Shown here one piece after another: positions 6,477 through 62,617 of a DNA stretch of 64,000 nucleotides. The DNA is from Ilex aquifolium. Lineage: Eukaryota; Streptophyta; Magnoliopsida; Aquifoliales; Aquifoliaceae. The position numbers were made by a program, and so were the translations under genes. The stretch lies in assembly GCA_951799425.1 (NCBI GenBank), contig OX637402.1, forward strand, positions 27,310,492 to 27,374,491, given 5' to 3'. The notes beneath the pieces were generated by a model. The model was not told the origin of the DNA, searched no databases, and was given only the letters and a program-made list of their open reading frames with translations. How positions within the stretch are numbered: the stretch's first letter is position 1; the number at the start of each line of letters is the position of its first letter.

Positions 6477-6626
6477 GTAAAAATACAAAACAAAATGCTG
6501 TCGTGCTAAGTAAAAGATCATCGGCGTTCGCCAACGGCTACCTCAACTTGAGCGTGGCAGAGAGCAACAGCCTTCTGAAACTGAAAATTTTCGCGGGAAC
6601 TCCCATCTCCGAAACAATCAAGGCAA

Positions 6627-10059: not shown

Positions 10060-13000
10060 AAAAAACTAAACCAAATTAGGCCTCATGTCTTAATAATTTA
10101 AGGTTGGCTATATGAGTCCATCTTCGCCATTCATTTTGATCATGCACTATACGCTCATTTAAGTTAAATATTTTCATATCTTTTTTTATTATTTTGTTCA
10201 ATGTTAATTTAGGTTTACCCCTATTTCTAGTCTCATTAAGAGAAATTATCTCACTTTTTCGAACCGGTGCCTCTATCGGCCTCCGTTGAACATGACCAAA
10301 CTATCTTAATCTATTTTCTCTTAACTTTTCTTCAATTGGAGCTACTCCTACCATTTCTCTAATACGGTCATTTTTTATTCTATACCATGCATCGACCTTA
10401 GCATTCTCATTTCCGCTACACTCATTTTATCCTTATGTTGTTTCCTAATTGCCCAACATTCTGTCTCATACAACATTGTTGTCCTTATAGCTATTCGATA
10501 AAACTCACCTTTCAATTTTATTGGTATCCTCCTATCACATAATATGCCAGAGACTTTCCTCCACTTAAGTCAACCGACGTTGATTCTATGAGTTACATCA
10601 TCTCCAATCTCTCCATTATTTTAATTATCGATTCTAGATATCTAAATTGTTTACTTATTGATATTTCTTGATTTTCAATCTTAACTTTTTCACTATGTCT
10701 ACTTCTTTTATTACCAAAATTGCATTGCATATATTCGGTCTTACTCCTACTTATTTTAAACCCTTTCGACTCGAGTGTCTCTCTCCAAAATTTTAAATTA
10801 TTGTTAATCCCCTTTCGAGTTTCATTTACTAATACAATATCATCTGCAAATAGTATATACCGTGGGACATCATCTTGAATGTGCCTAGTGAGTTCATCCA
10901 TAATTAGGGCAAACAGGTATGAACTTAGGACCGATTCTTAGTGTAATCCCACCGTGATTGAAAATTCTTTACTTTCTCCCACAGAAGACCTGATTATAGT
11001 CATAGCCCCATCATACATGTCTTTTATCACCTCAATATACCTATTTGTCACTCCTTTTCTCTCAAACACACTTCATATTATATTTCTAGGTACTTTATCA
11101 TATGCCTTTTCTAGATCTATAAATACTATATGGAGATTTTTCTTCTTCTCTCTATACTTTTCTATGAGTGTCCTCAATAAAGATATAGCCTTCATAGTTG
11201 ATCTACCCAGCATAAACCCAAATTGATTTCCTACACTGTAGTCTCAACTCTTAGGCGCCATTAAATTATCCTTTCCCATACTTTCATTGTATAAGTCATC
11301 AATTTTATCCCTCTTTCTCCATTCATCAGACATTTTCCTAGTAGCAATAATTCTATTGAATAATTTCGTTAACTACGACACCCCCTCATTCCCTAAGCAC
11401 TTCCAAACCTCAATTGTAATCTCATCTGGTCCTAAAGCCTTCTCTAATTTCATTTTCTTCAATGCAAACTCTAACTTTGAATTCTTTATTCTACGAAAGA
11501 AAGTTTCATTGATCCTACCATTTTCTATCTCTTCTAGGTTTTCTAAGTGATTTTCGTTTAATAGTTTCTCAAAATAGTCTTTCCATCAATCATTTATTTC
11601 CTCATCTTTAACTAAAACTTTTGAGTCCTCACCCTTGATGCACTTAACTGGTTAAAGTCTTTTGTTTTCCTTTCTCTAATTTTAACTAGTTTGTAGATGT
11701 CTTTTTCTCCCTCTTTACTATCTAGTTTTTTGTACAACTCGTCGTAGGCTTTTAACTTAGCGTCTCTAACTATCTTTTTAACCTCCTTGTTAGCTCATTT
11801 ATATCTTTGGAAGTTCTCTCTATTTCTATAATTTTGTCATCTCTTAAAGAATTCTTTTTTTTGCTTTAACTACCTCTTTTACATTGTCATTCCACCACCA
11901 AGTTTCTTTTCCCACAAACCTTCTACCCTTTGACTCCCCAAGAACCTCTTTCGAAATTTTCCTAATGTCTTCCGTCATCCTACTCCACATAACGTTAGTC
12001 TTATCCTCTAGGTTCCATAAGGCCTCTTTAAGCATTCTACTCCTAAATAGTACTAGTTTCTCATCTTTTAGATTTCACCATCTCGTTCTTGTTTTCTTAC
12101 TATGTCTCCTTACTCTATGTTGCCCTTTAATGTATAAATCTAGGATTGTTAGCCTATGTTGAGGTGTTAAGCTTTCTCTCGAGATAACCTTACAATCTTT
12201 ATATGCTAATTGGTATGTTCTTCTACTTAAAAAGTAGTCTACTTGGCTTTTGTTTGGTCAACTCTTAAAGGTTATTAGATGTTCTTCTCGTTTTCTAAAT
12301 AAGGTGTTTGCCACTACAAGATCATATGTCATTGCAAATTCTAAAATACTCTCACCGGCTTCATTTCGATCACCATATCCATAACCACCATGTCTTTTCT
12401 CATATTGTGTCCTATCTTTTCCTACATGTCCATTGAAATCTCCACCTATGATTATCTTTTCTCCTATAGGTTTATATTAAATTAATTCATCCATTTGCTC
12501 CCAAAATTAATTTTTAATATGTTTTTCTAACCCTACCTGAGGTGCATAAGCGCTAATCACATTAATTATATTCTCTCAAACTACAAGTTTGATAGATATA
12601 ATCCTATCTCCTTTCCTTGTAACTACTACTACGCTATCTTTTAGGCCTTTATCTACAACTATTCATACTCCATTTCTTCGTCTATCCTTTCCTGTATAGT
12701 AAATCTTAAATCCTGTATTTTTTTATCTCCCTTGTCTTCTCACCTACCCACTTAGTTTCTTATAAGCATGCTATACTAATTTTTCTCCTACTCATAGTTA
12801 CTACTAATTCCATTGTTTTGCCAGTGAGTGTACCTATGTTCCATGTTGCTAATCTAAGTCTATCATTGTGAACTAGCTTCCTTACTCCCACGCCCGTCTA
12901 TGGCGCGGAGACCCTTGCCCATTTATCACCGCACCTGGGTGTCGATGCGGCGCCCCTAACTTATTTGTCGAAACGCCTTGAGGTAGACACAACACCCCTA

Positions 13001-15102: not shown

Positions 15103-16601
15103 TCAGCGCTGTTTTTGGCGGTTTTGATATGTCATATAGTCGTGTGCTAAATGTGCTGCATCATCCTCCCTTAGTTGGAAAGAATTTGCCCTCGAATTAG
15201 AAGTATCATCGTCGGAGGTGTCATCTGTGTATGGAACGAGGTCCTTGACGTTGAAAACATCAGAGGTACTAATATGACTTGGCAACTTCAACTTGTAAGC
15301 ATTATAGTTAATCTTGTATAGAATCTCCAATGGCCTAATCTTTCGTGCTGCCAGTTTGTTGTACGCCCCAGCTGGAAAACGATCCTTAGTCAAAATGGCC
15401 CACACAAAATCACCAACTTCAAACTCTACCAAACGTTTCTTCTTATCCACTGCTTGCTTGTATTTCGTTGTAGCTTCAAGAAAATTATGTTGTGTAGCCT
15501 GGTGAACTTGCTGCAAAGTATCAATAAAATCTTGAGTCTTGCCATGAACACGTGTCATATCTGGGAGAGGGAGTAAATCAAGCGAGGAATGCAGAACGTT
15601 GACGAAAACAACGTGGAACGGGCAAAACCTAGTGTTGCAATTAACCGAACGATTATAAGCAAACTCTGTCGAGTACACCTTCTTATCCCAAATCTTCAAA
15701 TGATCACCAACTAAGCTGCGTAGAAGATCCCCCAAAGAACAATTAACTACCTCCATTTGTTCATCAGTCTAAGGATGGTAGGCACTATTGAAATCCAATT
15801 TGGCGTTAGCTAATCTCCACAAACTACGCCAAAAGTGATTGAGAAATTGAGTGTCCCTATCAGAAACAATGGAGGGAGGTAATCCATGTAGACGATAGAC
15901 CTCTCAAAAATACAGTTGTGCCACATTGACTACATCGGAAGTTCTCTTGCATGGAATGAAGTGTATCATCTTGGAGAAACGATCCTTTTCAAAAAAAAAA
16001 AAATTTATTGGAGAAACAATCCACTACCACAAAAATTGAGTCATTTCCCCGCTATGTATGAGGAAGTCCCAAGACAAAATCCATGCTCACATCAGTCCAT
16101 GCCTATGTTGGTACCGGCAGCGGCATGTACAACCCAACATTAGTGGCTTTCCCCTTGGACACTTGACAAATCCGACAACCCTTCACAAATATGTACACCT
16201 CTCGCTGCATTGAAGGCCAGAAATAACTAGATGCCACAAGTTTGGAAAGTATTGTCCCGTCCCACATGACCTTCACTGTGTAACTCCTTGATAACTTGTA
16301 GGCGAAAACTAGATTCCAGAACACATAACTGATTTCCTTTAAAAAGGAAACCATCCTACATATGAAAATCTGAATGTTGTCCTTCTGCTAGAACATCACC
16401 CACCACTGGTGCAAAATATAGGTTAGTGGATAATAATTCACTGAAAGAATCAAGTCCAAGTACCTTAGTCCTCATGACTGTGAAAAAAGAAGCACGAAAA
16501 CTGGGTGCATCTGCCACTCGATTTAAAGCACTAGACTTGTGCTTTATGACAAACGTGTATTGTCGCAAGTAAGCTGCCCAGCTGGTATGATGTCGAGACA
16601 A
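15103..16601 (-). mobile_element. Ty3/gypsy retrotransposon fossil, 3' part of pol
   Basis: A partial, broken LTR retrotransposon. Parts in order on the minus strand: the end of the RNase H region (about 16.6-16.36 kb), integrase zinc-binding region (about 16.35-16.1 kb), remains of the integrase core (about 16.1-15.7 kb), and the integrase C-terminal region with the typical segments VHQATQHNFLEATTKYKQ and NAYKLKLPSHISTSDVFNV (about 15.7-15.1 kb). Gag, protease, reverse transcriptase and both LTRs are not seen. It carries several breaks and looks old. Confidence 0.85.
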
Positions 16602-25794: not shown

Positions 25795-27108
25795 TCAAAT
25801 TAAAGCCACGAAACTGATGCCTGCTGGGTCTGCAGGTGGTTGCACGGATGATCCAAATTGAATGGGACATGATTGGAATGGTAAATGAGGTAAGGAAGGA
25901 GGCCAAACAGGCTGGACATAAGGGAATAAGTCGTAAAAGCAGCTTGGATAGCTAGTTCCATGATAATGAACGCCCTCTACGAGTTTAGTCTCTAAATTGT
26001 AGCTGAAAATCAAAACATCCAGTCGAAGATAGACAATCCGTGAATCTTGAGGATGGAAACCTGACATAAAAGGACGTTGTGGAAAACCAGGAGGAGGAGG
26101 TTGCTGATAGAAAATCTCCCCCAGTTTGATGCTTTTGGTGTCTGAAACCGGCAACAACAAGTCTTCAGGGTTCAAAGCATATGTTAAGACCCATTCGGTG
26201 CGAGGTATAATGCTGGAAAGACTATACTGCGATGTCTTCTTCTTCAAAACCCAGACCTCTATTCCATCAGGATCTGAGAGTGCACACTGCAACAACCCAT
26301 CATGTGTCAGCCCCATAGCTCTAACCATCCCATTCAAACCAGTAGTCGGCAATCTCATCAACCATACATGATTTTTTCCCATTCCTGGATCGTAAGCAGC
26401 CACAACATCTCCCTTGGCTCGCCAGTAAAACATCCCTCCCATCACGTCGCACTTCTCGTATGGAATCAAATAAAACTTGGATGGAAAAGAAAGCTGAGAT
26501 TTTTTCCACTTGCCAGTTTGAGAAGAGAAGGTTTCAATCTGCAGTTTGTTATCTTCAACTTGTGGGAGTCTAACACAAGCCCGAATGACTTCAAAATTCA
26601 CAATACCATCCTCTGAACACGAAAAGCCAACTGCTAGAGCTTTACATCGCAAGCTCGGTTTAGGTAGTGATAACCACTGGTTTTTAATGGGATTGCAGAC
26701 GAGATAAGCCATATTGTGACGGCCACAAAGGATGAGACCTTGAGGAGAACTGGCAAGTAAAAAACCAACCTTTTGGATGAAAGTGTAGCACTGTATTGCT
26801 CTTCCTTGTTGATCACAAGTGGAAAGGAATGCGAGCCTGGGCGGCGAAACCGGTAAATCTTCAAGGATGTCACGTCTTAAGCAGACAGGACCATGGAAGA
26901 ATCCTACCAGCAGCAGTGAAGAATTGTTGTTTCGAGACACATAACTACGACGGAAACTAGAATCTGAAATTATATGGTTCCATGTGCTTGACACACACTT
27001 CGACCTGAAAACTTCCTTCTGCGGCAATCGAATGAAGATCTCGACTAGAAGGTCTCTGGTGAGGTGATCCATCTGGTGAGGTAAAGAAGGTCGATATTTT
27101 GTTTGCAC
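25795..27108 (-). CDS. F-box protein
   Basis: Single-exon frame of 437 residues. An F-box covers about residues 13-57 (DHLTRDLLVEIFIRLPQKEV, then FRSKCVSSTWNHIISDSSFR), the motif that docks to SKP1 in SCF ubiquitin ligases. The rest has the pattern of a plant F-box-associated region: GLILCGRHNMAYLVCNPIKN followed by QWLSLPKP, then GGMFYWRAKGDVVAAYDPGM, and a Pro-rich tail. The substrate is unknown. Two in-frame starts are possible; the second Met (residue 13, MDHLTRD) lies directly at the F-box and could be the true start. A pyrimidine- and purine-rich leader with a TATATATA stretch lies just upstream (about 27151-27158). No disabling changes are visible. Confidence 0.88.
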   Translation of the reverse strand: MQTKYRPSLPHQMDHLTRDLLVEIFIRLPQKEVFRSKCVSSTWNHIISDSSFRRSYVSRNNNSSLLLVGFFHGPVCLRRDILEDLPVSPPRLAFLSTCDQQGRAIQCYTFIQKVGFLLASSPQGLILCGRHNMAYLVCNPIKNQWLSLPKPSLRCKALAVGFSCSEDGIVNFEVIRACVRLPQVEDNKLQIETFSSQTGKWKKSQLSFPSKFYLIPYEKCDVMGGMFYWRAKGDVVAAYDPGMGKNHVWLMRLPTTGLNGMVRAMGLTHDGLLQCALSDPDGIEVWVLKKKTSQYSLSSIIPRTEWVLTYALNPEDLLLPVSDTKSIKLGEIFYQQPPPPGFPQRPFMSGFHPQDSRIVYLRLDVLIFSYNLETKLVEGVHYHGTSYPSCFYDLFPYVQPVWPPSLPHLPFQSCPIQFGSSVQPPADPAGISFVALI

Positions 27109-27212
27109 TGTAAAAGGTTTCTTAGGAAAAATTGATCTGGGGCCTTTGGATATATATACATAGATAGAGGGAGGGGGAGAGAATTTCCTTTCCTTACCAA
27201 ATCATATTGGAC

Positions 27213-27950: not shown

Positions 27951-28445
27951 CAAATATGACCTTAAAACCGGTGGCTTAGAGTTGGGTCTGACAACAGGAT
28001 TGAAAATAAAATAACCATGGACAGATGAAAAGACTAGAGATTAGAGACTGGAAGGGTTATTTCGTGTCAGGTTCATGTTTATATTTAAATTCTACCTAAC
28101 TATGACTAATCTATAGTTAACCCAATGGACTTCTAATTTGATTTAGTATTGGTTTTAGGTAGGGTTAAATTTTGCTCGCTCTTAATTTCTGGGAAACTTC
28201 TAAGTGTATATTCTATCCATTCAATCTACTCTATCTGAAATTGTTGTAATAATATAATTTGAATTTCAAACAATTGTTATCATTTAATAGCTTATTCACT
28301 AGGCAATCTGTATTTTACAAACACTACAACAAAAAACATTTTTTGCGACGTTTTTTTTTGCGACGTTTTTAAATTTGTCGCAAATAGTTTACTATTAGCG
28401 ACGATTTTTTAATTTCGTCGCAAATTTCAGTTTTTGTAATGTTTT

Positions 28446-29745
28446 CGCGACGTTTTTAAAAAACGTCGCGAATAAACAATTTACTTAATTAAAAAATTTT
28501 AAAAAAATCAATTGTAATTGACTTTTAGCGACGTTTTTAAAAAATGTCGCCAATAAACAATTTACTTAAAAAAAAAAATTTTAAAAAATCAAATGTAATT
28601 GACTTTTCGCGACGTTTTTAAAAAACGTCGCGAATAAATTATTTACTTAAATAAAAAATTTAAAAAAAAAACAAATGTAATTGAATTTTTGCGACGTTTT
28701 TAAAAAACGTCGCGAATAAACAATTTACTTAAATTAAAATTTTACAAAAAATCAAATGTAATTTACTTTTCGCGACGTTTTTAATAAACGTCGCCAATAA
28801 ACAATTTACTTAAATAAAAATTTTAAAAAAAATCAAATGAAATTGACTTTTAGCGACGTTTTTAAAAAACGTCGCCAATAAACAATTTACTTAAATAAAA
28901 ATTTTAAAAAAAAATCAAATGTAATTGAATTTTCGCGACGTTTTTAAAAAACGTCGCCAATAAACAATTTACTTAAATAAAAAATTTTAAAAAAAATCAA
29001 ATGTAATTGACTTTTAGCGACGTTTTTAAAAAACGTCGCTAATAAACAATTTACTTAAATAAAAATTTTTAAAAAAAATCAAATGTAATTGACTTTTAGC
29101 GACGTTTTTAAAAAACGTCGCCAATAAACAATTTACTTAAATAAAAATTTTTAAAAAAAATCAAATGTAATTGAATTTTCGCGACGTTTTTTAAAAACGT
29201 CGCCAATAAACAATTTACTTAAATTAAAATTTTACAAAAAATCAAATGTAATTGACTTTTCGCGACGTTTTTAAAAAACGTCGCCAATAAACAATTTACT
29301 TAAATAAAAATTTTAAAAAAAAATCAAATGTAATTGAATTTTCGCGACGTTTTTAAAAAACGTCGCCAATAAACAATTTACTTAAATAAAAAATTTACAA
29401 AAAATCAAATGTAATTGACTTTTAGCGACGTTTTTAAAAAACGTCGCCAATAAACACTTTACTTAAATAAAAAATTTACAAAAAATCAAATGTAATTGAC
29501 TTTTCGCGACGTTTTTAAAAAACGTCGCCAATAAACAATTTACTTAAATAAAAAATTTACAAAAAATCAAATGTAATTGACTTTTCGCGACGTTTTCTAA
29601 AAACGTCGCCAATAAATAATTTACTTAAATAAAAAATTTTAAAAAAAATCAAATTTAATTGACTTTTCGCGACGTTTTTAAAAAACGTCGCCAATAAACA
29701 ATTTACTTAAATAAAAAATTTACAAAAAATCAATTGAATATTAAT
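28446..29745. repeat. Left subterminal array of about 16 palindromic units
   Basis: About 16 tandem units of roughly 82 bp. Each has a near-perfect palindrome GCGACGTTTTT...AAAAACGTCGC followed by a conserved AT spacer (AATAAACAATTTACTTAAAT, then ATCAAATGTAATTGACTTTT). Units differ by single bases. Some have changes in the centre of the palindrome that leave the GCGACG arms intact. It is probably the transposase-binding arm of the CACTA element. Confidence 0.85.
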
Positions 29746-31330
29746 TTGATAATTTGAATGTTAATTTGATGAATTGGGTGTGAATGTAATTAAATTGAAA
29801 GTCGATTTGATGAAATTGAATATCCATTTCATAAATTGAATGTTAATTTGATGAAATTGAATGTAAATTTGATAAATCGAATATTAATTTGATGAAATTG
29901 AATGTCGATTTGATGAAATTACATGTTAATTTGATGAAATTGAATGTCCATTTCATAAATTGAATGTTAATTTAATGAAATTGAAAGTCAATTTGATAAA
30001 TTTAATGTTAATTTGTTGAAATTGAAAGTCAATTTGATAAATTGAATGTTAATTTGATGAAATTGAATGTCAATTTGATAAATTGAATGTTAATTTCATG
30101 AAATTGAAAGTCAATTTGATAAATTGAATGTTAATTTAATGAAATTGAATGTCAATTTGATAAATTGAATGTTAATTTGATGAAATTGAAAGTCGATTTG
30201 ATAAATTGAATGTTAATTTAATAAAATTGAAAGTCGATTTGATGAAATTACATGTTATTTTGATGAAATTGAATGTTAATTTGATAATTTGAATGTTAAT
30301 TTGATGAATTGAGTGTGAATTTAATTAAATTGAAAGTCGATTTGATGAAATTGATTATCCATTTCATAAATTGAATGTTAATTTGATGAAATTGAATGTC
30401 AATTTGATAAAATTGAATGTTAATTTAATGAAATTGAAAGTCGAATTGATGAAATTACATGTTAATTTGATGAAATTGAAAGTCAATTTGATAAATTGAA
30501 TGTTAATTTGATGAAATTGAATGTCAATTTGATAAATTGAATGTTAATTTAATGAAATTGAAAGTCGATTTGATGAAATTACATGTTAATTTGATGAAAT
30601 TGAATGTTAATTTGATAATTTGAATGTTAATTTGATGAATTGGGTGTGAATTTAATTAAATTGAAAGTCGATTTGATGAAATTGAATATCCATTTCATAA
30701 ATTGAATGTTAATTTGATAATTTGAATGTTAATTTGATGAATTGGGCGTGAATTTAATTAAATTGAAAGTCGATTTGATGAAATTGAATATCCATTTCAT
30801 AAATTGAATGTTAATTTGATGAAATTGAATGTCAATTTGATAAAATTAAATGTTAATTTAATGAAATTGAAAGTCGATTTGATGAAATTACATGTTAATT
30901 TGATGAAATTGAATGTCAATTTGATAAATTGAATGTTAATTTGATGAAATTGAATGTCAATTTGATAAATTACATGTTAATTTGATAAATTTAATGTTAA
31001 TTAGTTGAGTTTGAATGTTAATTTAGTGAATGCAATGCTTATTAGAAAAAATTGAATGTTAATTAGATGTAATTTGGTGTTAATTTGATGAAATTATAGG
31101 TTAATTTGATGAAATTGGATGTCAATTTGATAATTCGAATGTTAATTTGGTGAATTGAGTGTTTATCGAATGAAATTGAAAGTTTATTTGATTGATTTAA
31201 TGTTAATTAGTTGAGTTTGAATGTTAATTTAGTGAATGCAATGCTTATTAGAAAAAATTGAATGTTAATTAGATGTAATTTGGTGTTAATTTGATGAAAT
31301 TGGATGTCAATTATCGAATGTCAATTTGAT
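29746..31330. repeat. AT-rich tandem array, about 41-bp unit
   Basis: Dozens of copies built on TTGAATGTTAATTTGATGAA alternating with ATTGAATGTCAATTTGATAA, with higher-order blocks that repeat segments such as GAATATCCATTTCATAAATT. There is no stable reading frame. It separates the palindromic arm from the captured gene part of the CACTA element. Confidence 0.8.
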
Positions 31331-31335
31331 TATTT

Positions 31336-31640
31336 GCGACGTTTTTATAAATCGTCGCAGAAGTGATTCCCTCCAAAAATTTTTGTGGCGCGAGAAATGA
31401 CTCTGAAATATTTTAAAGGTGAATATTATTTACGACGTTTTTATAAATCGTCGCAGAATTCAAAATTTTATTTTTGAATTAAGTAAATAACTACCAGTGA
31501 TGGGAAGTAAGAGGAAATATTTAATATTATTTGCGACGTTTTTTTAAATCGTCGCAGAAGTTAAAACTTTAATTTCGAATTAATGAAAATGTTAATATTA
31601 TTGGCGACGTTTTTATAAAACGTCGCAGAAGACAAAATTT
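31336..31640. repeat. Second small series of GCGACG palindromes
   Basis: Four copies of GCGACGTTTTTATAAATCGT followed by CGCAGAA, each about 75-100 bp apart, with unrelated spacers. They mark the inner boundary of the left arm. Confidence 0.75.
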
Positions 31641-31664
31641 AATTTTTATTCGCTACATCTGGCT

Positions 31665-32760
31665 GCCTCGCGCCAGACTCTCTGCCTCTCCCGCCTCTCT
31701 CTGTCTCTCTGCCTCTCTCTGTCTGCCTCTCTCGCCTCTCTCTGCCGATCAGCGACCGAAGAAGGCTTCATCGCAGGCTCCGCCGAAGAAGGCTCACTGA
31801 AGCTTCACCAGCAACCCCATCGAAGAACCAGAAGCTTCACCGACATTTGCCCTAAAAATTGGTCTTGTTTATGGACAGCTAGATTTTTTGTGGATCTGCG
31901 TTGAAAAACTGCTTTCCAAACAAGAGGTTGATGAAAAACTGCTCAGGCGAGTGGGACTGGTTTTACGGAGAGGTTGGACTCGGCTCTGGGTGAGATAGTG
32001 AAGGGTGTACAAAGTGGGAATGGGTTTTACACAGGTGAGTATGGGCGATGGTGGTTTGATTTGGAGCACAAAGAAGAAGATTTCTCTCTGCTCTCCCTCC
32101 CAAGCTCTCTCTTCTCCCTCCCAATCAGGTCCCATTCTCTCTCTCACTCACACTCAACGCACAGAGGCTCACACTCAGAGTCACTCTCTCTGTCTCTCTC
32201 TCACACACGCACACACACGGACTGAGTTTTTGGGTTTGTTTTTTTCTCTGGTTCACAATAGATACCAGCACTGAACTTTATCTGTGTTGGAGCAATATTA
32301 AATTGTTTGCAATTTCAAATATTTGGACCTTAAGTTTCTGAACTGGCTTGATGATGTAAAGTCTTGAGTAGAAGTTGGGCTTGGTCCAGTGATCTATACA
32401 ATTCTTTTTGTATTTATTTTCCTTCTTTTTTTCGGTTTCGCACCTCCAGTGAGGTTTCCGGTGAGGCATTGGACTTGGTCCTTCAATTGGGTGGTGGTGG
32501 TGAGCATTTGAGTGTAATAAGCCTAGAATTAGAGAGACCCACATCAGTACCCAGGTTAGAGAGACCCTCTCTCTCTGCCTCGCCCAACTCCCAAAATTTT
32601 AATTTTTCCCACTTTCTCTCTTTCCCCATCGTTGCCTCTTCGTTTTCATGCTGGAACACTTGCAGAAATTCCAAATATTTCCTTGAGATGAGGTTGAGAA
32701 GTGTTTAGTTATATTTTTGTACCACTATTAGTAGCTTATGAAATGGTTTACATATTATAA
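31665..32760 (+). promoter_or_regulatory. CT-rich leader-like region upstream of the captured gene pieces
   Basis: A pyrimidine-rich stretch (repeated CTCTCTGCCTCTC near 31675-31740 and CTCTCTCTCACACACGCAC near 32195) that looks like a plant promoter and 5' UTR. It lies inside the CACTA element and 5' of the captured exons. Whether it came with one of the captured genes is not clear from sequence alone. Confidence 0.3.
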
Positions 32761-32776
32761 GTTTAATTAACAGGCA

Positions 32777-32839
32777 ATGGCTTGCAGCATGAAGATTACC
32801 AATCAAAAAAATTCAACTTCCACCATCCTTTCTCCAAAG
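32777..32839 (+). pseudogene. Possible captured first exon (MTM1?)
   Basis: A 21-codon frame from an ATG (MACSMKITNQKNSTSTILSP then K) ends at a GT donor, with a CAG acceptor just upstream. The Ser/Thr/Asn-rich start would suit the first exon of an MTM1-like carrier, whose later exons follow at 35-36.6 kb. The assignment is weak because this end of the family is poorly conserved. Confidence 0.3.
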
Positions 32840-34535
32840 GTACTTATTTTCTTTGGACATACTTCTTAGATTTTTCAGGAACCCAAGTTACTACAAGATG
32901 CTTGCTACAAACTTTTTGCATGTATGTTAACTGCTGTCAACACCCATGACCTTGTAAATGTGGTGATCTCCCCTGTGATATTTGGAATGAAGCAGTTTGC
33001 AGCTTAGTAGATTGGATTTTTCTTCTCTGTTGGGTTGTGCAGTGTAGTCTTAAGCTTGAACTGCATTTGATTTGAAAGCATTTGGCATTACTATCTACGT
33101 CTTGGATTCCCAAAAGTCTATTGTATAGCTAGTCCAAAGTGAATTTGGAAATTTTACACTAAAATATTTTCTAATTTGGAAACTCTACATTGGTAGTGCA
33201 AGACCCTACTGCCATGCTTCATCAATACATGTTTTATTTATGTGAGAGTTCTTAGTGTAAACACATAAAATAATTTCATTTTTTCTCTTTAACCTTTCAT
33301 CTTTTTTCTTTGATGAATGATCACTTTTCCTTTCATATACTAAATCATTGGTTTCTTGTCATGCAAAACTATTGCCATTTCTAATAGAAACTTGCCACAG
33401 TTTCCACTATGACTTTGACAACTTTGGAAGGTTACATGCTTCTGTTTAGCTTAATTCATGACTAAGTACTACTAGCATAAAACTGATGCCGATATTAACA
33501 ATAAGGCTTGTTAATTCCTTTTCTTATTGCAAAATAAACATTTTGTCATCCCACCTGCATTGATCTGTTTTTTCTCCCTGCCCATTTATTTTAGTATCTC
33601 GTCATATTTCTTTTTATTCGAGAAGAAACAACCAGCATGTTTTATGCCATTAAGAACTAGTGGTGCTAATATAGTCATATGCAAAAACAAGTTTGACGAA
33701 CTGGTGTTTTGGGGAATTTATGAAGTCAGTAAGGATAACATCATATAAGTATATTTGGCCAGTAATCTGTGTTTTCAGTAAAAGCAAACAGTAGTTTAAC
33801 CCATGTGTACGTTGCTCGTACATGTGTTGTGACCCATTGAATTAAGCCAATGGTAGAGTTGGGTCCTTAATTTAAGGAAGAGGAAAACAATTCAATTTCT
33901 GTCAGACCTCTGCTGATTAATTGGGAAACTTTTTCAGGATGTACTGTAATCTATAATGATCATGTGACGACAATAGTTTATGTTACCTTAGAATAAAAGT
34001 CATGATTATGGATAAAATGTCACAAATGAGTAAGGAAGTCCTTGGAATGGTAAGTCCCAATAGATTTTTACCTGACAAACTTAGCACCAGAGTAATAAAC
34101 TAGTAATAAGGACCGACTTTACAGTTATTTGTCCTTGCTAACGGTTCTACAATTTTTTTAATCGACCTCCTAGTGATAGTATAAAAATACGTGTTCGACA
34201 TTATACGTTTATAATGACTATGTTCAGCATCAGCATATATATTGTATGTATACGAGTAATCAAATTATATCGATGTTGAGTCATCTTTTATAATTGAGTA
34301 TTTTTAGACAAAAACCCATCTCATGCTACAGCTTTATAGAGTTAAAGTAAGATAAGTTTTTGAGTAAATATCACTCACACTCCCTGACACCCCTCACATT
34401 TTAAAAAAAACACCGACCTCCCTTGATATTTATAACTTGTACCAGACACATCCCCTCCCTAGTTCCCATTAAGCTATGCTTCAGTTTTGGTGTTGTATGT
34501 TGTTATTTTTAGTGCTTGGTTTGACGCTGACTGAC

Positions 34536-34793
34536 TGTAAGTGAGGGAAATGCTTGCAATGAACGGGTAGAGGATCTCAATGCAACAACTCAGCAACGTG
34601 ATGATGTAAAGAAGCAATACGATGAATGGAGAAAGAGAAGGCAAGTCTTTCTTGTTCTTATAATTTCTATTTTATTTCTTCCTACAGTGCTTGCAATTAT
34701 CATTTGTCAACCACATTGGTTTCAATTTTCAGTTTAGATAAGTTCATGGCAGGATTTAACACAATATCTTTGAAGCTGAAGGAAATGTATCAG
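34536..34793 (+). pseudogene. Captured SMC4 gene fragment (two exons)
   Basis: Exon piece one, ending at 34640, reads NERVEDLNATTQQRDDVKKQ then YDEWRKR. Exon piece two, 34733-34793, reads LDKFMAGFNTISLKLKEMYQ. In plant SMC4 (condensin subunit, also CAP-C) these segments are adjacent and lie at the end of the coiled coil, just before the C-terminal ATPase head. The intron between them is retained, with a GC donor (AAG/GCAAGT) and an AG acceptor, so capture was at DNA level. The following head region with signature and Walker B motifs is absent. As a fragment it cannot act as condensin. Confidence 0.85.
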
Positions 34794-34959
34794 GTCTTTT
34801 AACTCATTGATTCTGAATAACTCATTGATTTTGTTGGATGAATGATCGGAACATGCATGTATAACTGTTTATGTTGATGAAATTTCTGTCTTGGCATTGA
34901 TGATGCTATTTCTTATTGGTGCCAGTGAGATTTCCCATGGTTGTTGCATCAAGCTTCTA

Positions 34960-36614
34960 CACTTCGCATGTTCTCCATCATGCACTTGTGCAGCTGCTGG
35001 TGCTGAACCTGAATTTAATGTCGGATAGTCTACGGTATAGAGGAACACTTGATGTCTTCTACAAAGTCATACGTGAGGTTGGTGTATATATGTACTTAGT
35101 AATGTGAACAATTACTCAGCTATATCTCAAATAAGGATAACAAAAATTGCAAGAATATGTAATGCACGAAGTACTTGCTGTGTCTTCATTCAGTTGGAGT
35201 CTTAATCCTTAATACTAGATTTGCTTTGTGACCTTTTTTCATGAGATTCACTGATTTTAAACCAGGTGGGGATCTATTTGCCTTGTTATGACATTTTCCG
35301 CAATCATATTGAAGAATTCACTTCAGAGAATGCTCCAAATATGACACCATATGTCCCCTTAGTTGCAAGTTCCTTGCCACGCTCAATAGCTTGTATCACT
35401 TGTTATCACATTGAGCTTGCTAGAACTCGTATGCAGGTATTATGTTTTATACCGATATTTTAGTCTCGCATGCATTTTACTCATATATAGATGACTGAAT
35501 AAATGCAACACTCTGGTCTGGGCATTTCTTGGGCTTTTTGGTTTCACGCTGGTCTTCCTTGTCTGGTTGCTCTCTCTCTCGCTTCATCTTTGTATGCAGG
35601 AAGATCTTTTGATCCTCTGCCCTGTTTTAGATCAGATTTATCTGGGAATATCGACAGTGTGTTCTCTTCTCTCTCTCTGATTTTTTTGAAGGCTTTCTCT
35701 GGAGTCTGGACCTCTTTCTCTGGTTTTGTTTCTCTCATACGTTGGGCTCTTTTTATACCCTCTGGATACACTATATTTGGCCTTGGTCTCTTCCTTTTCT
35801 GTTCAGTGTATCAGTTCCAATATTCCTGCCGTTCTGTCTCTTCGTCTTCTGTGCCAGCTTCCCTTCGGTTCTGATGCAGACCTTATGCCCTACCTGGATT
35901 GTTGGATCTCTTCTCATGGTGGATGCCTTTTAATTCACTGTTTTAATTCCCTGCTCATTGCTCATTTAATTTTGGAGGCTCTCCCAGCTGCCCTATCTGC
36001 TCAGCCCATAGCTTTGGTGTTGGAAGACTGGCTCCTCCTGCTCCTCACGCCTTGGGACCTTCAGCTGGGCTTTTGGTCCTTGTTCAAGCTCTCAGCTGGA
36101 CTCTCAGCTGGATTAAATGTTTTTCCAGCTGATCCTTCAGCTGGTTTGGCGCCTTTCAGCTCTCCCATGTAAAGATTTTTGTAATTCTTTTTTTTTGAAG
36201 GGTTAAAGCCAACTTTGGCTTCTTTCCTTTTTTGTTAAGGCTCTGCCTCTTCCTTCTTGTAATATTGGATTTTCTGCTATATATTTCCCCACCTTGGGGT
36301 TTAAAAAAAAAATAAAAAAAAATAAATGCAACACTCAAGCTTTCATGGCATTTTATACTATAAGATCCATAGCCATATATAAGTAATATAGTCTTTTTCA
36401 CGGGATTTTCTTTTTGCATTGCCATTGAATTTATGCAACATGTTTACACCTGAACATTGTTGCTGGAAAATCAGTTCTGCTAAAATTTGCCTTTGGCTTC
36501 AATGTTTTATACAGGCATTTAAAGAAATTCGAACTGATATGAAGCCTCCAGGTGTGTGGAAGACATTGGCTGCGATCATCTCCCCTGTCAGGAGCACAAA
36601 CAACCTCCAAAACT
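34960..36614 (+). pseudogene. Captured MTM1-like mitochondrial carrier fragment
   Basis: Pieces in order: a segment reading CSPSCTCAAGAEPEF and, after a frameshift, YRGTLDVFYKVIRE (about 34977-35078); exon 35266-35436 reading VGIYLPCYDIFRNHIEEFTS and ending IELARTRMQ; exon 36515-36614 reading AFKEIRTDMKPPGVWKTLAA then IISPVRSTNNLQN. This is the order in plant MTM1 (SLC25A39/40-type mitochondrial carrier linked to manganese delivery to SOD2). Introns are kept. The segment expected between YKVIRE and VGIYLP (LWRGTN region) and the third carrier repeat are missing. Its second intron holds a LINE-like insertion. Non-functional as a carrier. Confidence 0.85.
35514..36320 (+). mobile_element. LINE-like retroposon nested in captured MTM1 intron
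   Basis: An insertion ending in an A-rich tail (after TTCCCCACCTTGGGGTTT) is flanked by a perfect 16-bp target duplication AATAAATGCAACACTC (35498-35513 and 36321-36336). Both features are diagnostic of LINE-mediated insertion. The body is CT-rich on the plus strand with no recognisable reverse transcriptase, so it is a truncated or non-autonomous copy. Confidence 0.8.
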
Positions 36615-37619
36615 GTGAGTTTACTCATGGGTTTATTATGTCGGCTTATATATGGATGTGAATGGCCTAACTTACTGCATATGCTTATGTGAATATGCAT
36701 ATAACTTATAACTTCATATGCTTTGTATGAAGAACTTTTTGATTTCAATAGCTTAGTCTACACCTGAGCTGTTTTGCAGAGTTCTTGTTATATAATGATG
36801 CAATGAAAATTCAAGTATATGGAAATTTTGTTAACTAAGTGTGCTTGTCCACACCAAATGAGACAGTAATTCTCAAAAATCGCATTTTGTGATGGTTAAT
36901 ATTGTTCCTTGCTCCATATTTTTAGAGTATCCTTGGACGCTCTGCGAACTTGACTGGCTTCATTGATATTTTACTTGCATTTGAGGGGATTTTGTCATCT
37001 TGAATGGTATCATTACCAAAAAACAAGAGTCATCCTAGAAGTGATGTTTAAAGTTCTGAATGCAGTTATTTCAAGAGAACCTGAGGATAATAACATATGA
37101 GGAATATGTTAAAGTTGTATATTCGTCAATGGTCTCATTTTAGTCGTGAACATTACATTTGGAGAGCATGAAGGTCACTAGATTGCCTTTTTGAGCCCCA
37201 AGTAATTAAAGGGATTTCTTGTTCCCTGTTCAACATTCACTGTCCTTGGCTACTTGACCCTTGGTGTAGTATCATTTTCATTCTACATGCATGCTATCTT
37301 GTAGGTGCAGAGTCAACTGTTATATTTCTTGGTTCCCTTTCTTTTTGATATTCTAAGTCATTGGAAAATAGCAGTCTTAAAAATTAAAGCACCAAAAACA
37401 AAGGCACAACCCATGTACCCTGATCTATGCAAAAGGGCCAGCAATAAGTATGTACACTAACTCAACAAAAAATCTCTCAATAATTATATGAAAGAATTTA
37501 AATGCATGAGATACAACTTTGTTAAGGCAAAGAAAAGAAGATTCAACATATAAATTTGTGATTTTGAAGAATATCATTGAAATATTAAATGCTTTATTTT
37601 TTTTTCACAAAATGTTTGC

Positions 37620-38110
37620 AGTTATGTTGTGTTAGATTTTTTGGACTTTTGGTCTGTTAAGAAGAAGTTGGTTTGTGAGTATAAGGAGGATACTGGTATT
37701 GGATAGAGCAACTACAGTGCTTAACTGGTCCTGTGAGGCGCTGACTGCTGTGCTGCATTGGACTACCTGCTGTGCTGCACTACTGTGATGCATTGTTGTA
37801 CAGCTTTTGTTAAGCTGCTGAGTTATGGTGATGCAGTGCTGATATGCTGGAGATGATTAGAGCTCTGAAATCCAAGATCAGTCTGTGCAGGCAAGGCTGC
37901 TGTTATAGCATGACTATCAAGTGCTTTAGCTGCTTTGGAAGAAGAGGAAATATATCAAAATTTCCTTTTTGCAATTTTGAGATTTTTGAAATTTCATTAA
38001 TGAAATGTTTGGTTATGAGTGTATTAAGGATTAAGCCAATTTGGTTTGATCCTCTTTGCTTCTTGTAAATTTTGTTTCATGGAATAAAATTTCATTTAAA
38101 AAAAAAATAA
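37620..38110 (+). mobile_element. Possible second retroposon with poly-A end
   Basis: A block ending TTTCATGGAATAAAATTTCA followed by an A-tract near 38097-38109 resembles a LINE or SINE 3' end with a polyadenylation-like signal. It contains CTGTGCTGCA-type repeats near 37750-37780. No target duplication was found, so this is tentative. Confidence 0.3.
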
Positions 38111-38309
38111 ATCTATTGTTTTCCTAGTTGAATGACGTCCACTATGGGACCAATTTTGGGTAAGTGGCTTGATGTCGTGTAAAGAGCCTTCAGCAGAGTA
38201 TCAATATTAATTGTGTTAGTTTTTTATTGAACACATGTATTATTGGTGTACAGGTGAAAAATTTTATTGGAATATCATTTTTTATGAATTATTTAAAAAA
38301 AAATAAACT

Positions 38310-39110
38310 TTTTTGCGACGAAATTAAAATCGTCGCGAAAATTTGTAGGAACAATATTTTTTGCGACGATTTTTATACGTCGCAAATGTATTTATTTAAT
38401 TATTTTTTACATTTTTTATTAATCTAAAAAATTATTTGCGACGTTTTTTGTACGTCGCTAAAAATTAATTAAATTATTATTATTATTTTTTTTTATTTTT
38501 GTAAATTATTATTCGCGACGATATTTTTACGTCACAAAAAATGAATTAAATTATTATTTTTTACTTTTTTATTTTTTTAAAAAAATTATTCGCGACGATT
38601 TTTTTACGTCGCAAAAAATTAATCTAATTATTATTATTTACATTTTTTATTGATTTAAAAAATTATTGGCGACGATTTTTTTACGTCGCGAAAAATTAAT
38701 TAAATTATTATTTTTTATTTTGTTACCTAGTGGAATATCTTTTAGCTACGTTTTTTTTTAATTTTAGCGACGATTTTTTTACGTCGCAAAAAATTAATCT
38801 AATTATTATTTACATTTTTTATTGATTTAGAAAATTATTGGCGACGATTTTTTTACGTCGCGAAAAATTAATTAAATTATTATTTTTTATTTTGTTACCT
38901 GGTGGAATATCTTTTAGCTACGTTTTTTTGACTTTTGGGGACGTTTTTTTTTCGTCGCAAAAAATTTTTTTTTGCGATAAAAATAAATTTGCGTCGCAAA
39001 ATACTTTTTGCGACGAGGCTATTGCGACGAACAGGCGACGAAAAAAAAACGTCGCAAAAAATAATTAGCGACGATTTTTTGCAATTTCGCGACGAAAAAA
39101 AACGTCGCAA
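38310..39110. repeat. Right subterminal array of the CACTA element
   Basis: About a dozen GCGACGATTTTTTTACGTCGC-like palindromes separated by AATTAATTAAATTATTATTT spacers. A block of about 172 bp is tandemly duplicated (about 38587-38758 and 38765-38932, both with GTGGAATATCTTTTAGCTAC). The palindrome core differs slightly from the left arm (GATTTTTTTACGTC against GTTTTTAAAAAACGTC). Confidence 0.8.
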
Positions 39111-39131
39111 AAAACGATTTTTGTTGTAGTG

Positions 39132-40153: not shown

Positions 40154-41016
40154 TGATGAGCCCGAATTCTACTGGGTCAAGCCCAATCCAAATAAACCGA
40201 GGAAGTCCAGATAAGAGTCCATTGGAGTTGGATCGACCCACAGAAGGAAGTCCAAAGCACAACTAATGCTCAAAGGAGCCAAGAGGCCAGCACCAGGACC
40301 AAGGGGGGCGCCGCCCAAGGCCCCTAGGAGGGCGCCGCCCAAGGTCCCCAAATGGGCGCCGCCCATAAGGTCCCTTGGGGCGCCGCCCATAGGCAGCCCC
40401 TTGAGCCCTCCTTCGTCCTCCTCCGTTGTCTTCCCCTCAGTTCACCTCAGTGTCATGGGAATGACTCCGATGCAAGTCCAAACGAACGTGGCCCACTCCA
40501 ACTCAAGTCAAAACAGGGCAAGCTCAGTCCAAGATCTTCCTCCGACTGAATAGGAGCACGAGGGAGAGAATACCGGGATGAAGATTGAGGAGATCAAGTC
40601 CTACCAAAATAGAACTTACCAAAATGGTAGAGTCTTACCATAACTGTACTTACTAAATTATAGTGACCGCCTCACTGCCTCTCCCAACCTATATAATGTA
40701 AGTCATCTCCATATGAATGACACGCCTTGAAACCCCTACACTTACCCTCTTACACACTGTTTTCTCTCTCTAGAAGCACTGTAACTCCGATATACACCGT
40801 CCGGTGACAATTGTTCATTAATAAAGAACACCGGCCATCACTGTCATTCCAGAGAGTGGACGTAGGTCATCCGAGACCGAACCACTATAATTCCCTGCGT
40901 TGATCTGTTGTTTACCGTTTTAATTCCTTGATTGCCATTAATTAATTGATTACTGCTCATTAATTATATCATTACTCATACTTGACTGTTGATCTTGTCA
41001 AAGACGATTTTGTGCA
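40154..41016 (+). mobile_element. Solo LTR, probably Ty3/gypsy
   Basis: Begins TGATGAGCCC and ends GATTTTGTGCA (TG...CA) and is flanked by a 5-bp target duplication GAAAC (40149-40153 and 41017-41021). Length 863 bp. It has a TATATAA box near 40690 and an AATAAAG signal near 40820, giving plus orientation. A series of GGGCGCCGCCCA palindromes lies at about 40306-40390. No internal genes are present. Gypsy assignment is inferred from the LTR style. Confidence 0.78.
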
Positions 41017-49083: not shown

Positions 49084-49936
49084 CACATACACAAAACCAC
49101 AATGGCCCATGAACTCTGCTCCATGTAATTGTTTATGATGTAGTATGTTAGATTTCATGTTTTTGATCTAGGCGCCTGTAATTATATTTTCCTAACCCAA
49201 GTTTGCAAAGAGATGAATTTTTGAATGGTGAGCCTCTTATCATTTTCTCACTAATCATTTTTCTGCTTTCACTAATTAGTATCTTGTTAATCTAAATTTA
49301 TATCAATTTCAGATGAACCAAGGTTCTTTTTAATCCCGTTTGGTATATAACTGATATTTTTTGACTTTTTTATTCTGTTGCCAAATTTATGATTTACTTG
49401 AATGGAAAACTGGAAATCTCTATTTGGACCTTTTTGTTTGTCAAGATGACAGCTTAAATTGAGTTATGATTAAACAAAACTACACTCAAAAGCCTTAAAT
49501 CAGAATTCCTTGGGGTTCCAGCTCTTAGTGGAATCTAATCCTCTTTTAATTTTAGAAATCACTGCTTCAGTCTTAATTCCTTTTGGCCTTGTTTTTTCGC
49601 TTTTTGCAACTTTTTTTGAGTTTCTTATGGGTATTAATATTAAATTTTATTCTGAATGGTGTGCCTTATTAATGAGGATATTGAAAGGTGGCAGCTAGCC
49701 TAGCTGGTAAAGCCTGTTGGCAGTCATACTTGAGACCTTAATATATCCCTCTTGCACTCTGGTTGGGAGGAGGATTTGGGCAAGGGAAGGCTACCCCTTT
49801 TTGCAGCAATTGTACCCCAAACCCAAAGAAAAAAACAGAAAAAAATAGAAGGAGAAGATATTATATTTCTGTAGTTGGTATTGCTGCCCACAATGAGTTC
49901 TAAATTATTATGGTCTGTTGGTGTTTTGACAGGTTG

Positions 49937-52327
49937 ATGGTAATTGATGTTGTTAAAGTCAGGTGTTTTAAAGGATCCAGTGGTTTCTGTCTATCTGCTA
50001 TTGTTTGTTATCCAAGGAATTTTACTACTATGAATGAAGTAAAAGCAGATAATGCTTGTAATTTGTGTGCTCCAGTATCTGGTGGAGAATCTTATGTTCA
50101 GCAATCTGTACCAGTGAGTCTGGACCAGAGATGTTCATCTTCAATTCTTCAGCCAACACCTGAAATTGAAAAGAAGTATGTTCACCGTGTTTATGATGCA
50201 ATTGCTCCCCATTTCAGTGCCACCCGGTTTGCTAAGTGGCCAAAAGTTGCCACTTTCTTGAATTCTTTGCCACCTGGTTCTCTTGTCTTGGATGCAGGAT
50301 GTGGAAATGGGAAGTACTTGGGCTTGAATCCCAATTGTTACTTTATAGGATGTGATATTAGTGCTCCTCTTATCAATATTTGTGCAGACAGAGGTCATGA
50401 AGTTGTTGTTGCAGATGCTGTAAATCTACCTTACCGAACTGGTTACGGTGATGCTGCAATATCTATTGCTGTGTTACACCACCTTAGTACCGAGTATAGG
50501 AGGAAGAAAGCAATAGATGAATTAGTCCGAGTTGTTAAAAAGGGTGGCCTTGTGCTAATTACGGTTTGGGCAAGGGAACAAGAAGATAGTTCATTGATTA
50601 ACAAATGGACTCCACTTACCGAGAATTATTTGGAGGAATGGATAGGATCAAGTAGCCCTCAAATTCGTAGCCCTTCATCCTTCACCCTAGAGAGCATACC
50701 AGAAGTTGAGGAGAACGGTTCGGGAGAGCACCTAAGAGATTTCAAAGAACTATCTTGCAGTATGAAGTCTCCAGGGACTATACACTTAGCCTCTCAAAGC
50801 CAGCATCATTCTGTGCCTTCTGAGAATGGGAAAAATGGTGAAAACCAGCAAGAATATTTTGTTCCTTGGCACTTACCTTATCATCGTGCTGAAGTCAGCG
50901 GAGCTTCTGCTTGTGCCCTTGCAAATGGTTTGGCAACAAAAGATGATAAAAAGGGTGCAGTAGTGTACAATAGATATTACCATGTATTCAGTGAAGGCGA
51001 GCTTGAAAGGTAATGCAGTTTTTTCCCTTGATAGTGATTGTGAACATAATTATTTCCTGCTCTATTTCATTATCAATAATTGTTTGCTGTACTTTTTTCA
51101 TCTGGAATATATCATGCAGCTCGTCTTGCAACTCATAAATTTTTCATCTTACTAATTTTTTTCATTTTACCTGACCGTATGTACAACCCCATGTGGTTGA
51201 TGGGCTATTATTTTACATATTAGAACAAAATCCTGATGCACTTTTGGCACACATTTTATTTACTCCAATCTCTATCAGTTTAACCTTACCATGGACTATT
51301 AAGTGTTTGTGGATAGAATGGATAGTGGAAACATGCTATTTGGGATTGACAATGAAATAAAAGCAGGGGCACGGGCGAAGATGTATCTGAAAATGGGGAG
51401 AGTATGTTTTCTGATTGCTGCCTAGGATGAGGATGCGTGGTTGTGGATTGTGTCATTTATGCTATTTGTATCAAAAGATGGATTATGAAACAGCAGCCGA
51501 GTCTGCCTGTGCCAATTAGTGACCTTCCTCTGAAATAAAAGCAAATATTTTAAAATGAAGTTGTAAGTATGTAGTTTTGGGGGAAAAAAAAAAGGAAATA
51601 TCATCGCCAATGAATCACTCACTGAGTTTTGAATTGATCTGTAGCTGTCTGTTCTGTTTTCTGAATCTCCTGATGATAGTAGAGACAATTACTTGTGAAA
51701 TAGACTTTCCGGGGGGAGGGGGAACACTTGTGGAATAGAAAAGCGAAGAGAAGTGAAGGGAATCTACTATGGCGACAATACATTTCTATTTTTTCCTCTC
51801 CCCATTTTTGAAGGTATAATCTCTCTTTCGAATATGCAACTATGGCTCTTTCCTTTTTTTGATATCATTTGACCTTCCAATGTCAAGGAGTTTACGCTAA
51901 CAAACTTTTCTTGATTTTCCTAAATGCCCCTCTGAAAACCTTCCATGAATACTATGGTTGGTGTGCATTCTGGTTAGACAATGTTTTCTAATTTATGGCT
52001 TTGATTGTTTTGCAATCTCTTCTACTTACTGCATGTGCCATCAGGTCTAACCGATCTAGTTATGTAACAGCTTCATATTTGCACTATTAGGTATCTGATG
52101 GATTGCTAATTTTATCACATGAGCAGAAGGCGATATTATCAATAGTATCCATTTTTTTTCCATTTCACTTCTGGGGCAGCAATCTTATGTTGACATTGTT
52201 TATTGATTTTTTCAGCCTTTCCTTTTTATGCATATGTTGCAGGTTAGTGTCTGGTATGGACAATGCGGTCGTTGTTGACCAATTTTATGACAAATCAAAT
52301 TGGTGTGTTATTCTTGAGAAAAGATGA
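49937..52327 (+). CDS. TRM9: tRNA wobble-uridine methyltransferase, TRM9/ALKBH8 type
   Basis: Two coding exons, 49937-51009 and 52243-52327 (1158 nt, 385 residues). The junction splits an Arg codon (LE-R-LVSGMDN). The family methylates 5-carboxymethyluridine at the tRNA wobble position, giving mcm5U, in cytosol and with the partner TRM112. Evidence: SAM-binding motif I VLDAGCGNGKYL at about residues 117-128, CDISAPLI after the second strand, DAVNLPYRTGYGDAAISIAV then LHHLST, and the family start EIEKKYVHRVYDAIAPHFSA then TRFAKWP. The C-terminus DQFYDKSNWCVILEKR is typical of the TRM9 group. The ATG at 49937 follows an intron acceptor CAG at 49932, so a 5' UTR exon lies upstream, probably near the TC microsatellite. 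The N-terminal 70 residues are not conserved and might be an organelle signal. Confidence 0.92.

Positions 52328-58135: not shown

Positions 58136-62617
<4,482 letters not shown>

Follow-up and report, generated by a model that had tools for sequence, protein, structure and literature searches.

The question raised by this locus, which lies in a 64,000-nucleotide stretch of the Ilex aquifolium genome (the window), is how intron-bearing pieces of a condensin gene (SMC4) and of a mitochondrial carrier gene came to lie together between the ends of a transposon, and whether they have any function there. We consider it very probable that a Pack-CACTA element built up its cargo stepwise, is mobilised in trans and carries passenger DNA without coding function.

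A recently amplified CACTA element without detectable transposase

The element and its terminal structures are as follows.

28322..39131, plus strand: complete, non-autonomous Pack-CACTA element of 10,810 bp (genome coordinates C12:27338813-27349622), with exact inverted termini and four siblings having the same termini
28322..28335, plus strand: left terminal inverted repeat, CACTACAACAAAAA
39118..39131, minus strand: right terminal inverted repeat, CACTACAACAAAAA inverted
28442..29733, no strand assigned: left subterminal array of roughly 16 units of 81 bp that contain a GCGACG...CGTCGC palindrome
29732..31312, no strand assigned: second tandem array, with a 41/21-bp AT-rich unit
38356..38966, no strand assigned: right subterminal arrays, in which the 77/172-bp units contain GCGACG palindromes

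The inverted repeat is exact over 14 bp, and 36 of the first 40 positions agree. When up to one mismatch was allowed, the terminal motif matched three times within the window (0.10 expected), a number reached in none of 100 shuffles; genome-wide, the end pattern with up to two mismatches occurred at 894 sites and its reversed control at none. The 13-letter terminus CACTACAACAAAA had no match in the literature searched. Together with these CACTA-type termini the element has the subterminal direct and inverted repeats that are a trait of the superfamily: there are 35 GCGACG/CGTCGC motifs within the first 2.5 kb and 24 within the last 1 kb, mostly inside the 81-bp and 77/172-bp arrays. The AT-rich array is also matched at C17, C2, C14, C18er and L044-L046. 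A reading of the sequence alone had proposed a 10.8-kb Pack-CACTA element with palindromic arms and no transposase, and all three parts of that description hold.

No transposase was detected in it. None of the best 150 of 151 Transposase_21 (PF02992) matches, from 150 scored among 293 candidates, lies inside the element. Of the 37 open frames of at least 60 aa that overlap it, 32 were scanned against Pfam and gave no match at E 0.001. Rfam and ARAGORN searches of the window also gave no matches. Mobility would be provided in trans, by transposase from autonomous CACTA elements whose ends are the same. When 75 listed Transposase_21 matches were paired, by coordinates only, with 100 listed exact ends, six of the 75 (C1-C7) lay 6.4-10.4 kb downstream of an exact end on the same strand, one of them at C2:41088761 with its end at C2:41096692; random placement gave a mean of 0.16 and the wrong side gave zero.

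A genome search for other copies with the same ends, as the sequence-only reading had advised, led to four siblings of 6.6-10.9 kb that were read in the same 800-Mb genome, all of which keep their CACTA ends. Each is flanked by a perfect 3-bp target duplication: GAT (C3), TGT (C17), ATC (C2) and ATA (C6). Sibling interiors are 98.7-99.9% identical to the window element, with 3/3757 (C2), 8/4649 (C3), 9/4648 (C17) and 44/3367 (C6) differences. Given the perfect duplications and this degree of identity, the family moved recently. Beside the ends of the window copy itself the 3 bp differ, AAA at one and ACA at the other, and a search for its empty site with the joined flanks as query found only its own flanks. 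An F-box reading frame lies 1.1 kb from the element.

Two other classes of gene-capturing element were considered. Helitrons, which end in a 3' hairpin with CTRR, are without terminal inverted repeats and without target duplications; the inverted repeats and the 3-bp duplications in 4/4 siblings do not fit this class. Pack-MULEs have a target duplication of about 9 bp and long Mutator-type ends, with which the 3-bp sibling duplications and the CACTA ends disagree.

Cargo from unlinked host genes

The cargo was at first thought to involve only two genes. It consists of pieces from at least four sources, among them a fourth gene fragment and a segment that comes from C6:39.51 Mb, and it also contains two poly-A insertions.

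31663..33137, plus strand: fourth gene fragment, with a CT-rich leader (31663-32557) and exon pieces
33135..33849, plus strand: segment with a sequence match (91%) at C13:27263057-27263813
33850..34458, plus strand: segment with a sequence match (85%) at C1:58378772-58379330
34557..34974, plus strand: SMC4 fragment, with two exon pieces (34558-34641, 34734-34793) and intron sequence
34968..34974, plus strand: SMC4/carrier junction, 7-bp microhomology ATGTTCT
34968..36709, plus strand: MTM1-type mitochondrial carrier fragment, with exon pieces 35024-35077, 35266-35436 and 36515-36613
35514..36320, plus strand: poly-A insertion (retroposon) inside a carrier intron
35498-35513 and 36321-36336: 16-bp target duplication of this insertion, AATAAATGCAACACTC
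36722..38209, plus strand: third captured genomic segment, source C6:39.513 Mb
about 37658-38111: second poly-A insertion, interrupting the C6:39.513-Mb segment

The SMC4 and carrier fragments are in the same orientation and both retain introns, as had been proposed, and alignment to the parental loci identifies their sources. The SMC4 parent genes lie on C1 at 3.55/3.75 Mb, and the fragment differs from the 3.55-Mb gene at 12/418 aligned sites. Joined exons of the C1 parent matched SMC4 chains in PDB at E=6e-57 (SMC1, 5e-21). Since the element's own 48-residue SMC4 peptide had no SMC match in Pfam, the identity of the fragment rests on DNA similarity to the C1 parent. A stretch of 115 bp, which the elements may have lost or the C1 genes may have gained, is present in both C1 genes and absent from the window, C10 and C18 copies; the same three copies have the variant GATAAG in common.

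The carrier fragment differs from its parent gene at C6:41.68 Mb at 27/917 aligned sites and lacks one exon of the parental stretch, which would fall between 35205 and 35212. Joined exons of the parent matched Pfam Mito_carr at 6.6e-36, whereas those of the element scored 20.0 bits, under the cut-off of 22.3. The gene is presumably MTM1, a name suggested by sequence features. The site of the retroposon in the carrier intron is empty in the C6 parent and likewise in C10 and C18.

The CT-rich leader had been put forward as a possible start of transcription. There is no support for its being special to the element: it is the 5' part of the fourth gene fragment and occurs at eight further genomic places at 93-97%, three of which (L044-L046) were read and have the same CACTA-type arrays. 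Relative to L045 the window's copy of this fragment is internally deleted. Among Pfam families Nup54 came closest to the fragment, at 20.4 bits (cut-off 30.5), and none exceeded its cut-off.

Probable order of capture

The claim that the two fragments stand side by side is correct for the present arrangement in the window but is not supported for their capture as such. C10 and C18 are older, degraded loci with longer SMC4 and carrier pieces, further apart than in the window. Given this spacing, and a junction in the window that consists of a 7-bp microhomology, the two pieces were probably brought side by side secondarily.

The order suggested by these relatives is that (i) the SMC4 piece would have been captured first, as in copies on C14 that have a CACTA right end, where SMC4 is present and the carrier absent in the 9.5 kb read; (ii) the carrier-gene piece would then have been added, C10 and C18 holding both; and (iii) the retroposon in the carrier intron, the C6:39.51-Mb segment and the second poly-A insertion would have been added last. 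In the window lineage, internal deletions may have joined SMC4 to the carrier, while the siblings were trimmed otherwise. The most likely route of capture would be a published one, by which a pair of adjacent elements moves as a single unit, intervening DNA included. The order of capture rests mainly on insertions and deletions because the trees built from each fragment have weak support at inner nodes (47-98). At 14 sites of the carrier gene all element rows with a base agree with each other and differ from the C6 gene, and 7/14 of these sites are covered in the window lineage; a C5 outgroup has the C6-gene base at three, the element base at one and is uninformative at the rest.

It is also conceivable, though we think it unlikely, that an SMC4-carrier chimera was made first by a Helitron or by segmental duplication, as at C10 and C18, and was then taken ready-made by a CACTA element in one step. 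This would fit the finding that the 18 kb examined at C10 contain neither a CACTA motif nor a terminus, and that C10 and C18 have SMC4, a middle stretch (in C10 partly common repeats) and the carrier in common but differ in the sequence outside. However, a 233-bp CACTA-clan marker, which at 5/6 places (C1-C7) has a listed left end 3.5-6.2 kb upstream of it, is found upstream of SMC4 at both loci, 0.5 kb away in C10 and 23 kb away in C18. In addition, C18 has a CACTA right end downstream and no left end in 28 kb, and the copies on C14, which have the right end of a CACTA element and SMC4 but no carrier in 9.5 kb, argue against acquisition in one step. Because C10 shows no ends in its 18 kb and C18 only the right end in its 28 kb, membership of these two loci in the family rests on the marker and the shared cargo.

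Possible function and significance

Compared with their parents, the captured exons have seven replacement changes and one silent change, so far as the sequence goes the pattern of coding DNA that looks neutral. We regard it as very unlikely that the element is expressed as a chimeric gene, or that it gives rise to small RNAs regulating the SMC4 and carrier genes in trans. Such a role would gain from the splice-site letters next to the exon pieces, which equal those of the parents, and from the 262/368 exonic 21-mers (74/104 for the SMC4 piece) still identical to parent exons; there is also precedent in soybean Tgm-Express1, where splicing joins the gene fragments in chimeric transcripts (PMC1947982). 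Against it stand the excess of replacement changes, a frameshift in the first carrier exon, a proline to histidine change in the carrier signature and the missing exon, and no inverted repeat covering the SMC4 and carrier pieces was found in the element.

According to a review that cites Wang et al. 2017, SMC4 is needed for transposon silencing in Arabidopsis (PMC8616336); this is one of two papers found to mention both CACTA and SMC4. One could imagine that its SMC4 cargo benefits the element, small RNAs from the SMC4 piece lowering SMC4 and so relaxing the silencing to which the element and its relatives are subject. We hold this to be extremely improbable, but it is testable since SMC4 is a reported transposon repressor and, if true, it would mean a transposon with an antisense weapon against its own repressor. 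Finally, that SMC4 and the carrier gene were ancestral neighbours carried off as one contiguous stretch, as the proximity of their pieces at C10 and C18 might suggest, has next to no chance of being right and is rejected because the parents are unlinked multi-exon genes on separate contigs (C1 and C6) from which the partial C10 and C18 copies are 1.9-3.2% diverged. The sequence-only reading had named adjacent parents, or relatives without the CACTA ends, as its refutation; the parents are not neighbours and the four siblings retain the ends.

Multi-gene capture by CACTA elements has already been published for soybean Tgm-Express1 and for maize Pack-CACTAs, and the window element is a clear new example of this known kind. 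Tgm-Express1 is described as a CACTA element in which fragments from five unrelated host genes have kept introns (PMC1947982), a cargo like that seen here; it sits in, and is transcribed from, an expressed gene, whereas the window element lies near the F-box frame. CACTA elements of Chenopodium likewise have captured gene fragments and tandem arrays but, as described, the fragments lie upstream of a transposase domain (PMC8978399), and none was detected in the window element. Compared with the Pack-CACTAs of Arabidopsis, rice and maize, the host species and captured genes are different, the palindromic subterminal array is long, and degraded relatives at C10, C18 and C14 suggest an order of capture. 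The term 'mitochondrial carrier' occurs in none of the 12 papers listed of 50 matched in a literature search.

Copies of this kind could pass for SMC4 or carrier paralogues in annotation. Because a single genome contains probable intermediates (SMC4 alone, SMC4 with the carrier) alongside the present mosaic, the stepwise assembly of Pack-CACTA cargo would be traceable here by insertions and deletions.

Structure, siblings and probable autonomous partners

The element is a recently mobile Pack-CACTA. A terminus search of the window allowing at most one mismatch identified CACTACAACAAAAA at both ends, exact and inverted, in agreement with the sequence-only reading, which had described matching termini enclosing this interval. 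The search returned three matches where 0.10 were expected; the remaining one, at 16022, has one mismatch. Immediately outside the ends are AAA on the left and ACA on the right, with one of the three bases mismatched.

28322-39131, Pack-CACTA element, 10,810 bp
Left arm, array of about 16 units of 81 bp, each with a GCGACG...CGTCGC palindrome
Left arm, after the 81-bp array, 41/21-bp array
Right arm, arrays of 77/172-bp units

The following were observed around the element, which sits 1.1 kb past the 5' end of the F-box reading frame.

6585-8498 (+), PPR repeats in a long open reading frame
10593-10937 (-) and 15103-15768 (-), remnants of retroelements, comprising part of a reverse transcriptase and an SH3 domain like that of Tf2-1
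25795-27201 (-), F-box gene, with Pfam matches to F-box and to the At3g26010-like propeller
40304-40394, tandem repeat of a G+C-rich 24-bp unit (GGGGGCGCCGCCCAAGGCCCCTA), lying downstream of the element
49904-51013 (+), open frame with a methyltransferase domain
61248-61697 (+), open frame with an aminotransferase domain

In its own assembly (800 Mb, 103 contigs, designated here by C numbers) the window is C12:27310492-27374491. A 28-base end pattern with at most two mismatches occurs at 894 sites genome-wide (reversed control, 0), and a check for further copies with the same ends, as the earlier reading had suggested, yielded four siblings that were read end to end, each with a perfect 3-bp duplication.

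Sibling on C3, 6,594 bp, GAT
Sibling on C17, 10,926 bp, TGT
Sibling on C2, 8,850 bp, ATC
Sibling on C6 (38.8 Mb), 8,951 bp, ATA

Counted over the common interior (window 33692-38340), the window copy differs from those on C2, C3, C17 and C6 at 3/3757, 8/4649, 9/4648 and 44/3367 sites, respectively, and siblings differ from one another by at most 1.5% over the shared interior. At a substitution rate of 7e-9 per site per year, which may not be that of this plant, the window, C2, C3 and C17 copies split roughly 0.06-0.23 million years ago. Different internal stretches are absent from C3 (~29.7-33.7 kb), C2 (~31.5-34.6 kb) and the C6 sibling (~34.3-35.5 kb), the last also differing around 31.8-33.1 kb; these gaps fit internal deletions and replacements.

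No transposase was detected, in line with the earlier reading: (i) no Transposase_21 place fell inside the element among the 150 listed of 151 matches (150 of 293 candidates scored) and (ii) the 32 scanned of 37 element-overlapping open frames of at least 60 aa had no hit in Pfam at E 0.001. When the coordinates of 100 listed exact ends and 75 listed transposase matches on C1-C7 were compared, six of the latter lay 6.4-10.4 kb downstream of an exact end on the same strand, against 0.16 on average (at most 3 in 2000) under random placement and 0 in the wrong-side control. Autonomous partners with the same ends, with candidates defined by coordinates, therefore probably exist.

Sources of the cargo

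The proposal that the cargo consists of SMC4 and carrier sequence stood insofar as both fragments aligned to parental genes, on C1 and C6, and fell short in that there are more sources than two; the cargo is richer than was first seen.

31663-33137, fourth gene fragment, with a fuller version in another genomic place (L045)
33135-33849, segment resembling C13:27.26 Mb, 91%
33850-34458, segment resembling C1:58.38 Mb, 85%
34557-34974, SMC4 fragment
34968-36709, carrier fragment
35514-36320, first poly-A insertion, 16-bp duplication
36722-38209, third cargo segment, source C6:39.513 Mb
about 37658-38111, second poly-A insertion

The gene nearest to the SMC4 fragment is at C1:3.55 Mb; a further copy lies at C1:3.75 Mb and aligns with it blockwise, at 88-98%. 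Joined exons of the parent matched PDB SMC4 chains at E=6e-57 versus 5e-21 for SMC1. The carrier parent, presumably MTM1, lies at C6:41.68 Mb, has multiple exons and is matched by a diverged homologue on C5; joined exons of the C6 gene matched Pfam Mito_carr (6.6e-36), and the element's own carrier exons fell below the Mito_carr cut-off. The third segment agrees with its source at 96.3% across 941 aligned bases and at 95% across 100. Exon pieces of the fourth fragment include MEDLKDRLTKKKSQIARMMERTSEVRRMKDELQQ and its 5' part is a CT-rich leader, found at eight further places (93-97%), three of which were read (L044-L046); a further match, at C18:24.351 Mb, is a candidate for the host gene.

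Both poly-A insertions lie nested within the cargo. The site of the first is empty in the carrier parent and at the C10 and C18 loci described below; the second is missing from the C6:39.51-Mb source, and no convincing duplication could be identified for it. Part of the first insertion (a retroposon) together with carrier intron also occurs in four near-identical copies (L008-L011, at C11:21.246, C4:47.272, C2:58.213 and C7:14.308 Mb), with no SMC4 match within the 3.4 kb read of each.

How SMC4 and carrier came together

Older, degraded loci at C10:9.64 Mb and C18:10.0 Mb carry both fragments on one strand, spaced about 1.5 kb (C10) and 11 kb (C18) apart, and retain one exon of SMC4 and one of the carrier that are absent from the window copy. 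A stretch of 115 bp present in both C1 genes is missing from C10, C18 and the window, which also have the variant GATAAG in common. Furthermore, at 14 carrier sites (seven covered in the window lineage, the other seven in C10 and C18 only) all element rows with a base agree against the C6 gene; the C5 outgroup sides with the gene at three and with the element at one. Taken together, these features fit one shared capture. The SMC4/carrier junction in the window is ATGTTCT, a 7-bp microhomology, and the adjacency is therefore best read as the product of a later deletion.

SMC4-bearing copies with a CACTA right end occur on C14 (L037 and L038, at 7.519 and 7.557 Mb), with no carrier within the 9.5 kb read of each; since their right flanks are identical, they are probably a single insertion duplicated afterwards. 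A 233-bp marker is present at 13 places, and on C1-C7 five of six follow a listed left end, downstream of it by 3.5-6.2 kb. It also lies upstream of SMC4 in C10 (0.5 kb) and C18 (23 kb), connecting both loci to the CACTA clan. Counting against membership, C10 has no CACTA motif or terminus within 18 kb, and within 28 kb C18 has only a right end. The cargo was probably built up stepwise; inner tree nodes are weak (support 47-98). At C10 (L029-L030, 9.634-9.652 Mb), two identical 229-bp direct repeats ~4.7 kb apart interrupt the carrier fragment, the pattern expected of a young LTR element.

Precedent and coding state

There is precedent for such elements, including in work that we take to be by Gisby and Catoni. 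That work (PMC8903248) describes Pack-TYPE elements whose DNA comes from several loci, with maize Pack-CACTAs having the most, and lends support to a capture model whereby adjacent elements move as a unit along with the intervening DNA; the model is restated in a 2026 review (PMC13317346). Tgm-Express1, as described by Zabala and Vodkin (PMC1947982), has fragments of five genes and 12 chimeric transcripts. No report of CACTA capture of SMC4 was found in a literature search judged by titles and abstract openings. As far as these searches reach, the SMC4-carrier combination is new, and the kind of element is already known.

The five exon pieces together show seven replacement changes and one silent change (Ka 0.019, Ks 0.010; small numbers), two of the seven falling in a single SMC4 codon at which it is the C1:3.55-Mb gene that departs from the other copies. 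There is a net gain of one base in the first carrier exon, one carrier exon is missing, and the proline of the carrier signature, which we take to be PIELAR, is histidine in the element. From its sequence, we take the cargo to be passenger DNA. Exonic 21-mers are identical to the parents in 262/368 cases, and trans-acting small RNAs from the cargo would thus be possible in principle, but the SMC4 and carrier pieces are covered by no inverted repeat.
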